Below are positions 22,855 to 29,741 of a stretch of 47,175 bases of DNA, piece by piece (position 1 is the stretch's first letter; each line of letters starts with the position of its first letter). The DNA is taken from NCBI RefSeq assembly GCF_004342445.1, contig NZ_SLWW01000018.1, positions 1 through 47,175 on the forward strand, read 5' to 3'. A model generated the notes under the pieces. It saw only the letters and a program-made list of their open reading frames with translations. It ran no database searches and was not told the DNA's origin. Origin of the DNA: Rhodovulum euryhalinum (GTDB taxonomy: Bacteria; Pseudomonadota; Alphaproteobacteria; Rhodobacterales; Rhodobacteraceae). A program made the translations under genes and the position numbers.

Positions 22855-23649
22855 ATGCAGATCGACTGGCTGACCGTTGCGGCCCAGATCGTCAATTTCC
22901 TGGTTCTGGTCTGGCTGTTGCAGCGGTTCCTCTACCGTCCGATCACCGACGCGATGGCGCGCCGCGAAGAGCGGATCGAGACCCGACTGTCCGAGGCCAA
23001 GGCCGCGCGCGCCGAGGTCGAGGCCGAGGCGACGCGCCTGCGCGAGAAACAGCAGGAGCTGGAGGCCAGCCGCGAGGAGGTGCTGCGCGCGGCCCGGCAG
23101 GAGGCCTCGGACCTGCGAACCGCGCTGGAAGACGATCTTCGCAAGGAGATGGAGGCCCGGCGCAAGACGTGGGAAACTCATCTGGAGGAGGAACGCGATG
23201 CCTTCGCCGCCCGCCTGCGCCAGCGGGCCGGTCACCAGGTGATCGACATCGTCGGCCGTGTGCTGCGGGATTACGCGGGCAGCGACCTCGCAGGGCAGGT
23301 GGCGGCCACCTTCCTGCAGCGTCTGGCGGATCTTGACGCAGAGGCACGGGAGAAACTGTCGGACGCAGCCCGGCGCGCGGACGGTCCTGCAAGGGTGGAA
23401 AGCGGCGTGCCTCTCGAGCCGTCCGCGCGCAGCCGGATCACGCGCGCCGTCCACGAGCACATCGCCCCCGACATCGAGGTCGACTATCGCGAAGATGACG
23501 CCTTGCTGCTGGGCGTGCGGCTGACCATCGGCGAACAGACGGTGGAGTGGTCCGCCACCCGGTTTCTCGGCCGACTGGAAACGACGCTGGACGAGGTGAT
23601 CGAGGGCAGCAGCAGACGCCGGTCCGATCGTGCACCCGCCAAAGCGTGA
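22855..23649 (+). CDS. atpF: N-type F1Fo-ATPase subunit b with a delta-like C-terminus
   Basis: A 264-residue peripheral-stalk subunit, much longer than the usual ~156-residue b. It has one N-terminal membrane helix ([20 protein letters not shown]), then a charged coiled coil to about residue 130 ([20 protein letters not shown]). After about 195 the sequence [20 protein letters not shown], then [15 protein letters not shown] and [14 protein letters not shown], resembles the C-terminal part of the delta subunit. No atpH (delta) gene is in the operon, so this tail may do delta's job of binding alpha. The ATG is at 22855, four bases after atpE. Confidence 0.9.
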
Positions 23650-23659
23650 GGAACGCGCC

Positions 23660-25195
23660 ATGAGGCTCGACGATCTGCACCGCGACCTCTTCGCCCCGCT
23701 CGAGGACGCGCTGTCACGGGTCGATCCGGTGCTCGAGATGGCCGAGATCGCGCGGATCGTTTCGGTGGGCAACGGCGTGGCCGAGGTGGCGGGCTTCACC
23801 GACCTGCATGCCGACGAATTGCTGGCCTTTGCCGGTGGCGTCATGGGGATCGCCTCCGATATCGGCACCGAACGCGCTGGTGTCATCGTCCTGGGGCCGA
23901 CCGATTGCCTGCGTCCCGGCGACCCGGTGCGCCGCACGGGCCGGGTGGTCGACGTGCCCGTCGGGGCGGGTCTCTTCGGGCGGGTGGTCGATGGCCTTGG
24001 CCGCCCGCTGGATGGCGGCGAGGCCATCGAGGCAGAGAACCTTATGCCCATCGAACGGCCCGCCCCCCCGATCATGCACCGCGCGCCGGTACAGGTGCCG
24101 CTTCAGACCGGGATCAAGGCGGTCGACGCCGCCATCCCCATCGGCCGCGGCCAGCGCGAACTGATCCTGGGCGACCGGCAGACCGGCAAGACCGCCATTG
24201 CCGTCGATGCAATCCTGAACCAGCGCGATACGGGCGTGCTGTCGATCTATTGCGCGATCGGCCAGCGCGCCTCGGCGGTGGCGCGGGTGATCCAGAGCCT
24301 GCGCCAGGGCGGCGCGCTGGAGCGCACCATCGTTGTCGTGGCCAGCGGCGAGGATGCGCCGGGGCTGCAATTCGTCGCCCCCTATGCGGCCACCTCGATG
24401 GCCGAGCATCTGATGGCCCGGGGGCACGACGTTCTGATCGTCTATGACGACCTGACCCGCCACGCCCGCGCCTATCGCGAACTGTCGCTGCTGCTGCGCC
24501 GCCCGCCTGGGCGCGAGGCCTATCCCGGCGACATTTTCTACATTCATTCGCGGCTTCTGGAACGCGCCACGCAGTTGCGCCAGCAGCATGGCGGCGGCTC
24601 GCTCACCGCGCTGCCCGTGGTCGAGACGCAGGCGCAGAACATCGCGGCCTATATCCCGACCAACCTGATCTCGATCACCGACGGGCAGATCTATCTCTCG
24701 CCGAGGCTGTTCGAAAAGGGTCATCTGCCCGCCATCGACATCGGCACCTCGGTCAGCCGGGTGGGCGGCAAGGTGCAACTGCCGGCCTTCCGCGCCGTCG
24801 CGGGCAACCTGCGGCTGATGTATGCGCAGTTCGAAGAGCTGGAGACCTTCGCGCGCTTCGGCACCCAGCTCGATGCCGAGACGCGGCGCAAGCTGACGCG
24901 CGGCCTGCGCGTGCGCGAGGTGCTGAAACAGCGCGAGCACGACCACATCGCCGTGCCCGAACAGATCGCGTCGCTGCTGGCGGCAACCGAAGGCCTGCTG
25001 GACGGGTTCGAGCCCGACGACGTGGCCGAGGCGGAACAGACGGTCCGGCAGGTGGTCCGGCGGCAGGCCCCCGAGATCTGCGACAGGATCGCGGCCGGCG
25101 CGCGGCTGGAGGATGCCGATCGGCAGACGCTGATCGAGATGATGCGCGCGGCGCTGTCGGGCCTGCAGGCGGAGGTCGGCAATGGAGACGCTTGA
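23660..25195 (+). CDS. atpA: N-type F1Fo-ATPase subunit alpha
   Basis: A 511-residue regulatory nucleotide-binding subunit. Walker A is GDRQTGKT near residue 171, and the segment [20 protein letters not shown] precedes it. The region [20 protein letters not shown] and the [20 protein letters not shown] segment are typical of alpha. The N-terminal crown domain begins [20 protein letters not shown], a form seen in N-ATPases and unlike the usual alpha N-terminus that docks delta. It overlaps atpG by 14 bases. Confidence 0.96.
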
Positions 25196-26060
25196 AAGCC
25201 TGTCGGACGCGCTGGAAACCACAGGCGACATCCAGTCCATCGTGCGCACGATGAAGGCCCTGTCCTCGGTCAGCATCCGGCAATACGAACAGGCCGAACG
25301 GGCGATGGCGTCCTATGCCCGCACCGTCGAAGTGGGCCTCATGGCCGTGTTGCGCCATGATCGAACGGCCGAACTGACCCGGCCTGGCGCGGGCGGCGGC
25401 ACCGGACGCGAGGCGCTGATCGTGATCGGCTCGGATCGCGGCCTGTGCGGAGGCTACAACGACAGGATCACGCGCTTCGCCTTGTCCCGGATGAACGGCA
25501 GGCCGATGCTTCTCGGCGTGATCGGGACGCGCGCCGCGGCCCGGCTCGAGGCGGTAGGTAAGCCCGCGGACTTCCTGCGCTCGCTTCCGGGCTCGGTCGA
25601 GGGGCTGTCGCGGCTGGTGCAATCCGTCATCGTCGAGATCGACCGCTGGACCCGGGTCGAGGGCGTCGGCGAGGTCTGGCTGGTGCACAACCGTCGCGAA
25701 GGGCGCATCGCAGCCAAGCCGCAGGCGCACCGGCTGCTGCCGCTTCCCGACAGCTATCTGCGCAAGCTGGCGCAGGCCGAGTGGCCGGGACGCTCTCTGC
25801 CGCTGGTCCGCGTGGAGCACCGACAGATGATGTCCTGGCTCGTGCAGCAAAGGCTGTTCGTGGTGGTCTACCGGGCCCTGGCCGAGGCGCTGGCCAGCGA
25901 ACATGCCTCAAGGCTCGCGGCGATGCAGGCCGCCGAACACAACATCGACGAGCGCCGCGACGCCCTGCACCAGCTTTACCGCCAGCGGCGCCAGGAGACG
26001 ATCACCCGCGAGCTTCTGGACGTGGTCTCGGGCTTCGAAGCCGTCCAGACGGCCGACTGA
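25182..26060 (+). CDS. atpG: N-type F1Fo-ATPase subunit gamma
   Basis: A 292-residue central rotor shaft. The N-terminal helix [20 protein letters not shown], the [20 protein letters not shown] stretch, the Rossmann-like middle ([20 protein letters not shown]) and the C-terminal helix ([40 protein letters not shown]) cover the whole family length. It is the last gene of the operon; no delta gene follows. N-type gamma is more diverged from the standard gamma than the alpha and beta subunits are. Confidence 0.94.
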
Positions 26061-27966: not shown

Positions 27967-27997
27967 CCCCTGCGGGCGGCCGCGGGGGATTATTCTT
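27967..27997 (+). terminator. Rho-independent terminator, T-tract split by an IS insertion
   Basis: A nine-pair stem (CCCCTGCGG at 27967-27975 with CCGCGGGGG at 27980-27988, one G-T pair) and four-base loop are followed by ATTATTCTT. Joining across the inserted element gives ATTATTCTTTCCT, a longer T-rich tail, so the insertion fell inside the terminator of the lipoprotein gene. Confidence 0.7.
27990..27997. repeat. Left 8-bp target-site duplication
   Basis: TTATTCTT directly precedes the left inverted repeat and is repeated exactly at 29734-29741 after the right inverted repeat. Eight bases is the duplication size known for IS1595-family elements. Confidence 0.8.
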
Positions 27998-28023
27998 CCC
28001 TATTATCCACAAGAAAAAGCAGG
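27998..28023 (+). repeat. Left terminal inverted repeat of the IS1595-type element
   Basis: Begins CCCTATTATCCACAAG and ends AAAAAGCAGG. It matches the reverse complement of 29708-29733 at 25 of 26 positions (A versus G at position 14). Confidence 0.85.
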
Positions 28024-28151
28024 AGGCGCGCCAAGTTCGCGTGCGACAGCTTCGCGGACGAAGCTGCCGTTCGGCGCAGAACTTCCAAACTCGGCTTTGT
28101 TTCTACGCTATAGTTGCCTCGGCGGCACCAGTAAGAAGGCAGGAATATAGC

Positions 28152-28487
28152 ATGACCCAGTCTCTTAATCGGCTCGTGGAGCGGCAGATCCAGAAAGCTC
28201 TCGCAGAGGGCAAGTTACGCGGCCTTGAAGGCGAGGGGAAACCGCTGCCCGACCGCTCGGGCGAGGCGTTTACCGACATGGCGACAGCAGTGGCGGTCCG
28301 CATAATGGCCGAAGCAGGCACACTGCCCGAGGAATTCAAGATCAAGAAGCTGCTGGAGGCAGCGAAGCAAAGCTACAGGGAAGCAGAGGGCGATGACGCG
28401 AAACGCGTTGCAATGGCCCTGATCGCCGACCTTCAGCAACGCTACAACATAGCAGTAGAGGCAAGACGGCGGTTTATGGGAGGTTAG
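28152..28487 (+). CDS. DUF1992 protein (DnaJC28-like domain), IS passenger
   Basis: A 111-residue protein starting MTQSLNRLVERQIQKALAEG, with the DUF1992 signature GKLRGLEGEGKPLPDRSGEA, then VRIMAEAGTLPEEFKIKKLL and a C-terminal helix (IADLQQRYNIAVEARRRFMG). DUF1992 is the small domain found alone in bacteria and in eukaryotic DnaJC28. The usual second part is present, so it is not obviously truncated. It lies inside the inverted repeats of the IS1595-type element and converges on the transposase. Its base composition looks less G/C-rich than the neighbouring genes, consistent with arrival on the element. Confidence 0.85.
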   Translation: MTQSLNRLVERQIQKALAEGKLRGLEGEGKPLPDRSGEAFTDMATAVAVRIMAEAGTLPEEFKIKKLLEAAKQSYREAEGDDAKRVAMALIADLQQRYNIAVEARRRFMGG

Positions 28488-28560
28488 CCCGAAGCGGCCA
28501 CCCGTCTGCTGCGCAGCATCTGGCGAAATGGGCTCTCAGCGGACCTTCGCAGTGACGGGG

Positions 28561-29586
28561 TCATGGCCACCGAAGACCCCACGACGGTGTGCGTCTCATC
28601 TGGCGGCCGACGGCTCCGCAGAGCAGGCCTCGCATCTGGTCCACAACCGGGATCGGCCTCCATACGGTCGTGGTCTGGGCGGTTGAGAGGCCCGATGAAG
28701 ACTTCCGCTTCCGCACTTTGCTCTCCGGGGTCCTGTGGTTCCACCGCCAGATGATCTCGTCCAGGTATCGCTGTAGGTGCTTCCGTCCCAGGCGGTGATA
28801 AACGCCGATCAGAGCGCGCTGGACGACCGCATTCACTGCCTCGACGGTGTTGATGTGCGCCCCGGTCTTCGTATTCGCATACTGGCGCTTGTTGTGCTGG
28901 ATTGTATGGTGGCTGGCAAAAGATGCCCCAATCTTTCCGTAACTCGGGTTCTTGTCGGTGATGAGCGCCGAGGTCGGGTCGATCCAGCCCTCGATGACGG
29001 GCTTCATCGTGCGCCCTCGAGCATTTGGGATGAGCACGGCTCGAGCCTGACCGTTTCGCGCCGCAGCAACGAGCGCGATCGGTTTGCCTGTTCCTCGACC
29101 CCGCTTGTTCTTGACGCCATGGCGGAACTTCGGCTTGCCGCCGACGAAGGCCTCATCGACCTCGACCACACCCGACAGTCGGCCGGCAATGCCCTGCCGA
29201 TCATCCATCATCTCGCGAATGGCGTGGCCAAGCTTCCACGCGGTCTTCTGGTTCACCCCCAAGATGCGCGACATCACGACCGACGAAATGCCCTTGGAAG
29301 ACGTCAGGACGAGGAACATCGCGGGGATCCAGGTCCGGAGATCCAGCTTTGTCGCGTGGAGCGGCGTCCTCGTGGTTACGGTGAACTGGCGTCGGCATTC
29401 CCTCTCGATGCACTCATACACGCCGGGGCGCACGGATGCACCGCGCAGCGGGCGCGAACTCAAGCTGCCGCAATGTGGAAAGAACCGATCATCGCCCCAG
29501 ATGGCGTTCTCGAGGAAGAGCCGCGCGTGACGTTCGGTCGGCATCTTCTTCCAGACATCGCGGACGGACTTCAGTTCGGTGATCAT
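28561..29586 (-). CDS. IS1595-family (ISXO2-like) transposase
   Basis: A 341-residue transposase. A degenerate N-terminal zinc ribbon has C39, C59 and C64, but the first cysteine is Phe (FFPHCGS). A helix-turn-helix (SSVVMSRILGVNQKTAWKLG) is followed by the catalytic core with D144 (VVEVDEAFVGGK), D211 (ALITDKNPSYG) and the third motif HINTVEAVN (H244, N246, E249). The C-terminus has YLDEIIWRWNHR. The frame is intact, so the enzyme may be active; the lost zinc ligand is the one doubt. It lies between the element's inverted repeats. Confidence 0.9.
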   Translation of the reverse strand: MITELKSVRDVWKKMPTERHARLFLENAIWGDDRFFPHCGSLSSRPLRGASVRPGVYECIERECRRQFTVTTRTPLHATKLDLRTWIPAMFLVLTSSKGISSVVMSRILGVNQKTAWKLGHAIREMMDDRQGIAGRLSGVVEVDEAFVGGKPKFRHGVKNKRGRGTGKPIALVAAARNGQARAVLIPNARGRTMKPVIEGWIDPTSALITDKNPSYGKIGASFASHHTIQHNKRQYANTKTGAHINTVEAVNAVVQRALIGVYHRLGRKHLQRYLDEIIWRWNHRTPESKVRKRKSSSGLSTAQTTTVWRPIPVVDQMRGLLCGAVGRQMRRTPSWGLRWP

Positions 29587-29707
29587 GGAGTGGCCTCGCT
29601 TCGGGGGGGGGCCCAGAAGATTGACTGATTTCTCCTAACCGGAAGCGACTACGTTATGGCGTAGCCGGGGCCTTCGCGAGGCAAGTAGGCTGAGCATTTC
29701 CGAAAGC

Positions 29708-29741
29708 CCTGCTTTTTCTCGTGGATAATAGGGTTATTCTT
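29708..29741 (-). repeat. Right terminal inverted repeat (29708-29733) and 8-bp target duplication (29734-29741)
   Basis: The minus strand from 29733 begins CCCTATTATCCACGAG, mirroring the left end, and TTATTCTT follows on the plus strand as the second copy of the target duplication. Together with the left end this fixes the element boundary to the base. Confidence 0.85.

Follow-up and report, generated by a model that had tools for sequence, protein, structure and literature searches.

Within the window (the whole stretch of DNA analyzed, 47,175 nucleotides from Rhodovulum euryhalinum) a unit of 1,736 bp, from 27998 to 29733, is very probably a transporter IS (tIS) of the IS1595 family that carries a DUF1992 gene as its passenger. 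The gene sits in a slot between constant left and right arms, and relatives of the element carry unrelated genes in the same place. That relatives hold other cargo identifies DUF1992 as cargo; it does not thereby exclude the gene from the element. The element type is already known. The consistency of the slot and the breadth of the cargo are the interesting part.

The element and its two genes

The unit is bounded by inverted ends of 26 bp, identical at 25 of 26 positions, and flanked by a direct 8-bp duplication (Table 1), just as the preliminary description had it, to the base. The duplication is exactly 8 bp long, for the adjoining base on both sides differs. The duplicated sequence, TTATTCTT, occurs only twice on the plus strand of the window and not at all on the minus strand. 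When the element end was searched as a 23-mer with up to three mismatches, the whole genome matched at the element's two ends only, and the reversed end pattern, used as a control, gave no match in any of the 10 genomes searched. The unit is single-copy in its own genome—one transposase match to the element, one pair of ends—and has a GC content of 61%, against 67% for the window. Its ends begin CCC. Upstream, at 23630–26060 of the window, two ORFs resemble, by eye and from their translations, the alpha and gamma subunits of an F-type ATP synthase.

The gene content proposed earlier, an IS1595 transposase and a convergent DUF1992 gene, is borne out by Pfam and by the coordinates. The DUF1992 protein matches PF09350 at E 6.7e-15 (55.4 bits; curated cut-off 27); the transposase matches PF12762 over the full length of the model (E 5.4e-40) and the zinc ribbon PF12760 at E 4.6e-06 (26.9 bits; cut-off 25.4). 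The DDE_Tnp_IS1595 domain is described in PMC8101967 as diagnostic of the IS1595 family, and an N-terminal zinc ribbon as present in all IS1595 groups except IS1016; the element has both, together with an 8-bp target duplication. A tIS, as set out in PMC11891212 and PMC9330008, is an IS with a passenger inside its ends that has no role in transposition. In the window element the ends, flanked by an exact duplication, enclose DUF1992, and close relatives are without this gene. The two IS copies that flank the gene in a composite transposon are not found.

Table 1. Features of the element and its borders (positions in the window)
Feature	Position	Strand	Basis
Left copy of 8-bp target duplication, TTATTCTT	27990..27997	.	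direct sequence comparison
Left inverted repeat (IRL)	27998..28023	+	25/26 versus right repeat
Constant left arm, about 60–80 bp including inverted repeat	27998..28068	+	common to sister elements with other cargo
Minimum extent of captured DNA	28122..28499	+	homology to G593 DUF1992 gene outside such an element, 82% DNA identity
Passenger gene DUF1992 / DJC28_CD (PF09350), 111 aa, convergent with transposase gene	28152..28487	+	ORF, Pfam
Constant right arm, from ~30–40 bp past transposase stop to right end	28527..29733	-	pairwise alignments
IS1595-family transposase, 341 aa, zinc ribbon + DDE domain, open frame	28561..29586	-	ORF, Pfam
Transposase codon 36, Phe replacing zinc-ribbon Cys	29479..29481	-	position computed from ORF start
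Right inverted repeat (IRR)	29708..29733	-	25/26 versus left repeat
Right copy of 8-bp target duplication, TTATTCTT	29734..29741	.	direct sequence comparison

The transposase had been called intact. This holds for the reading frame and for the three acidic residues, D144, D211 and E249, which the alignment shows to be kept, but not for position 36 of the zinc ribbon, where 42 of 45 aligned transposases have Cys and the window copy has Phe. The other two exceptions at this position, L112 and L115, contain stops when read in one frame. With a zinc-ribbon cysteine lost, the window copy may no longer be functional and may now be immobile; the change might have come after insertion, and activity may have been lost with it. 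Elsewhere, the transposases of L058, L112, L115, L128, L132, L139 and L150 have at least one stop in the single frame used for the tree; these copies look decayed, and most keep perfect or near-perfect duplications.

Related elements, their arms and their cargo

At E <= 1e-20 the transposase is found in 57 of 292 genomes of the order, its own included. Among plasmids, 333 records match it at E <= 1e-5, and in 8 of these the best place reaches at least 60% identity; a profile built from 15 transposase copies led to 54 loci in named genomes; and three pattern matches in viral contigs yielded no confirmed transposase. Altogether 78 loci were gathered. Removal of 12 duplicate records left 66 non-redundant loci, all delimited in one way, with the best pair of ends scored jointly with the 8-bp duplication. 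A candidate pair of ends was present at 59 of the 66 and absent from seven (L104, L116, L130, L138, L140, L144 and L146). Perfect 8-bp duplications came to 39 (44 if one mismatch is allowed), and in a control that shifted the right 8-mer to nine positions the numbers of perfect matches were 0, 0, 0, 0, 2, 0, 1, 1 and 0 of 58–59. A fortieth, TATTTATT on both sides of a 4,487-bp element in G204 that is also among the 59, was resolved after the common delimitation; 26 of the 66 loci are without a perfect duplication. The perfect duplications are AT-rich, with 83% A/T over 38 of them and 97% at positions 1, 7 and 8, and the window duplication fits this pattern. L098 has ends alike at 25/26, unrelated flanks and no matching duplication; near-perfect ends with non-matching flanks look as they might after rearrangement between elements. 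L050 has a different type of end, alike at 26/26 and bounding a 1.2-kb element, and a lone end-like sequence at G197:C15:120298-120320 (L207), with three mismatches and no partner, is possibly the remnant of a further element.

Elements with more than 150 bp between left end and transposase stop were counted as cargo-bearing. By this measure 35 of the 40 elements with perfect duplications carry extra DNA, and five (L049, L117, L126, L134 and L148) consist of the transposase only. The transposases of 32 of these cargo-bearing elements share at least 59% identity with that of the window, and these 32 hold 29 different cargoes, DNA-similar ones being merged (L106 with L109; L119 with L120 and L048). 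Comparison of 37 cargo regions, all against all at the DNA level, gave five groups with common cargo. Cargo ORFs were chosen by third-position GC, which picked the wrong strand at least twice (L097 and L064), where the other ORF was taken. Forty proteins, one of them a DUF1992 protein from outside such an element, were scanned against Pfam (Table 2); five remained without a match at the chosen cut-offs (L046, L107, L111, L136 and L139), and three had only matches below Pfam's curated score (L057, L101 and L110). No cargo gene could be named in L105, L106, L109, L121, L062 or L125. Thioclava atlantica alone has three elements of the clade with three different cargoes (L098, L108 and L111), of which only L108 has a perfect duplication.

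Table 2. Cargo of related elements
Element	Host or remark	Cargo	Basis
L097	Salipiger bermudensis	NUDIX	Pfam
L102	Roseivivax marinus	MaoC + MFS	Pfam
L108	Thioclava atlantica	zinc alcohol dehydrogenase	Pfam
L100	Tranquillimonas alkanivorans	cation efflux	Pfam
L058	duplication with one mismatch	EamA + AraC	Pfam
L132	Paracoccus ravus	similar to EamA + AraC of L058	DNA comparison
L103		SUKH	Pfam
L115		R2K ATP-grasp	Pfam
L118		FCD regulator + methyltransferase	Pfam
L114	Kiloniella laminariae	FMN oxidoreductase	Pfam
L119	similar cargo in L120 and L048	HipA + HTH	Pfam
L123		MerR/methyltransferase + GNAT + RsgA GTPase	Pfam
L128		TetR + alcohol dehydrogenase	Pfam
L124		LysR + SDR	Pfam
L122		epimerase	Pfam
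L047		SulP + universal stress protein	Pfam
L127		DoxX/epimerase	Pfam
L064		GNAT	Pfam
G204 element		LysR + LysE + DHDPS	Pfam
L098	imperfect duplication	DUF2268 protease	Pfam
L112	duplication with one mismatch	partial S41 peptidase match	Pfam

The division into arms and slot is clearest in a close clade of nine elements with transposases 92–100% identical to the window's: the window element itself, L097, L098, L102, L108, L046, L100, L101 and L112. All 36 pairs share a right block of ~1.2 kb, running from near the transposase stop—in most pairs from ~30–40 bp beyond it—to the right end, at 90–96% DNA identity. A left-end block with 66–100% identity is shared by 32 pairs, extending for at least 49 bp in 30 of them and for 24 and 31 bp in the other two; it is missing from L046/L102, L046/L112, L100/L112 and L101/L102. 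Leaving aside matches of one end with another, no alignment at E <= 1e-3 fell in the cargo of the nine. Between the window's transposase gene and that of L097 dS is 0.09 and dN 0.012, and the two elements have unrelated cargoes. Mapped onto a 45-row transposase tree, the cargo labels need 34 changes or more, a rough figure because several labels are 'unknown' tags and 11 rows have stops.

That this architecture moves as a unit is shown by sister elements, which have the ends and the slot in common and 8-bp duplications of their own; they also support the earlier reading of an IS1595-type element with a passenger. L046, of 1,774 bp, lies on a Ponticoccus alexandrii plasmid and has a transposase 95% identical to the window's. 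Its empty site is present on a plasmid of Sagittula stellata E-37: the flanks are continuous there, with one copy of the 8-bp target and no transposase, and 103 of 118 bases are alike. The target reads AATCGTTT in one plasmid and AATCGCTT in the other. A 3.2-kb element with HipA and HTH genes (L048:3843-7049, L119 and L120) occupies three unrelated sites with three different duplications, on a Sulfitobacter faviae plasmid, in a Pseudooceanicola MAG and in Roseicyclus marinus, and is 97.2–98.7% identical over its full length; the HipA and HTH genes by themselves are found on Cereibacter plasmids at 86–87%, with homology limited to the gene pair.

The DUF1992 unit itself probably transposed into its present site, to judge from its own ends and duplication. 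The unit is known from one copy, no second DUF1992-bearing element having been found. In the relatives searched the site is not conserved, and neither an empty site nor a DUF1992 gene without the transposase was seen at this position. The left flank matches in pieces in all 16 genomes of the genus. Used as a single query, flanks plus element matched in 56 of 101 relatives, a weak test with at most two candidates scored per genome, and of 21 loci fetched with that query only L088 had pieces of both flanks within 1.6 kb. At L088 (G006:C32) one flank piece is inverted relative to the other, and the neighborhood is partly kept but rearranged.

Where the gene came from, and how it may have been acquired

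Besides the DUF1992 gene, its genome has no PF09350 match. The distribution of the gene is patchy: at E <= 1e-15 it occurs in 94 of 394 genomes of the family, and it occurs in 7 of 16 of the genus, its own genome being included in both counts. The nearest homologue (G593) is 90% identical in aa sequence, and the match covers only bases 125–502 of the element, that is, the ORF, the ~30 bp before it, which include the ribosome-binding region, and the 12 bp after it. Between the two genes dN is 0.050 and dS 0.89, which shows that the gene has been under constraint over this divergence. Of 95 other DUF1992 places found, 29 were examined within ~1.5 kb, and none has a window-type transposase nearby. 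One of them, L174, has an end-like sequence on one side (16 of 23 positions), which we take as chance because neither a transposase nor a partner end was seen. The DUF1992 neighborhoods in six relatives are not shared with the window site, and plasmids gave one record of the protein, from Paracoccus, with 45% identity over 60% of the query. The search for DUF1992–IS1595 pairs and for paired ends suggested at the outset thus brought many paired-end relatives with other cargo and no second DUF1992 pair.

It might be argued that DUF1992 contributes to the working of the transposon, for example by assisting transposition in the manner of a chaperone or by acting as a regulator. The preliminary description raised the idea of such help, and the position of the gene inside the ends and its constraint relative to the nearest homologue are in keeping with it. 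We think it most improbable, and the data lend it no support: eight elements with transposases 92–97% identical carry other genes in the slot, those at 95–97% doing without DUF1992; transposase-only elements with perfect duplications exist (L117 and L126); and DUF1992 elsewhere was without a window-type transposase at all 29 loci examined. Even harder to credit is a plain IS that landed next to a DUF1992 gene already in place, with a second repeat and a duplication that arose by chance. DUF1992 is indeed a patchy gene in its own right, and its own genome has no other copy; but an inverted repeat alike at 25 of 26 positions whose outer edge adjoins an exact 8-bp duplication, a reversed end pattern that matched nowhere in 10 genomes, and a left arm common to sister elements beyond the repeat all stand against coincidence.

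If DUF1992 is a passenger, there is more than one way in which it might have boarded. The unit could be what remains of a composite transposon in which the gene lay between two copies of an IS, the left one later reduced to its end. Just that end would then be left, and the transposase-only elements L117 and L126 exemplify the full copy; yet the stretch from the left arm to the DUF1992 gene shows no remnant of a second transposase, and the same course of events would be needed independently for each cargo. We regard this as improbable. Less so, though still unlikely, is uptake by one-ended transposition, as in transposable modules, in which a stand-in left end beyond a neighboring gene is used and no exchange in a fixed slot takes place. 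Left ends are more variable than right ends in several elements (L102, L103 and L118, for example), and the clade pairs with no left block, or with only 24–31 bp of it, fit this route. A fresh stand-in end would not bring with it a left block of 49 bp or more, however, and such a block, well past the 26-bp end, is what 30 of the 36 pairs have.

The transporter IS remains the reading we prefer. Its zinc-ribbon/DDE transposase would recognize the two 26-bp ends and move everything between them as one piece, and insertion into AT-rich 8-bp targets would give rise to the target duplication. The passenger would be expressed, we infer, and be useful or neutral to the host.

Candidate sequences for cargo exchange have fared variously. 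A 23-mer in the left arm (28051–28073), considered as an abundant intergenic repeat that might mediate exchange, was dropped as too rare: allowing up to three mismatches, 7 of 61 genomes have it, each a single time and its own genome among them, and 2 of 61 have the reversed control. A hairpin in the left arm was rejected too, since it folds no better than shuffled sequences (z -0.59; z -0.21 for the junction on the transposase side); by eye, its stem is broken in L097 and L098. In the HipA/HTH elements (L063/L120, L048 and L119) a phrase of ~15 bp from the left arm recurs by eye, direct and inverted, beside the transposase stop across the cargo. This could bear on cargo exchange.

Known transporter elements and what these may mean

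Passenger-bearing ISs are an accepted kind, for which a 2009 paper on the IS1595 family is cited (PMC11891212, PMC7986276, PMC9330008). ISNha5, an IS1595 tIS, likewise combines an IS1595 transposase with genes, enclosed by the ends, that play no part in transposition; going by its description, its cargo consists of transcription regulators rather than DUF1992 (PMC11891212). The tIS66 elements of Pseudomonas, such as ISPa75 with fosZ, have the passenger downstream of the transposase gene, as here, and show the same pattern of a transposase part 90–93% identical between elements with and without different passengers; they differ in belonging to the IS66 family, with three transposition genes and a resistance gene as passenger (PMC12888890). 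ISPepr2 of Pelobacter propionicus, IS1595 by its RefSeq label, has related ends, a perfect 8-bp duplication and a transposase with 40.6% identity across 98% of its length, but is 1,081 bp long and has no passenger. The HipA/HTH elements share the architecture, the slot and the type of duplication, with transposases about 60–62% identical; their cargo differs, being a toxin-antitoxin-like pair. A literature search, with the 2009 paper and ISfinder outside it, found neither a DUF1992 passenger nor this clade in print, and nothing in it contradicts the earlier belief that such a passenger was undescribed. DUF1992 turned up in heat-shock gene surveys of catfish and planthopper, known to us by title, and in none of the literature found on IS1595 with a passenger gene; excerpts of PMC3281130, PMC7371123 and PMC11092175 contain nothing on IS1595 passengers.

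When a small unit transposon holds a single ordinary gene or operon, annotation can easily record it as a transposase next to a host gene. Ends, duplications and a fixed slot taken together reveal 29 different cargoes around one transposase clade, and offer a direct view of single genes—metabolic, transport, toxin-antitoxin and stress—hopping between the plasmids and chromosomes of Rhodobacterales. They also make it testable how cargo enters and leaves a tIS. We propose tentatively, as a possibility to be taken seriously though not one we would yet favor, that in this Rhodobacterales clade the IS1595 tIS is a general shuttle for genes and has a true cargo slot, in which host genes and small operons are turned over by a mechanism inside the element, and faster than the transposase diverges (different cargo at a transposase dS of ~0.09). 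If so, the shuttle would be a one-slot cassette system driving gene flow among these bacteria.
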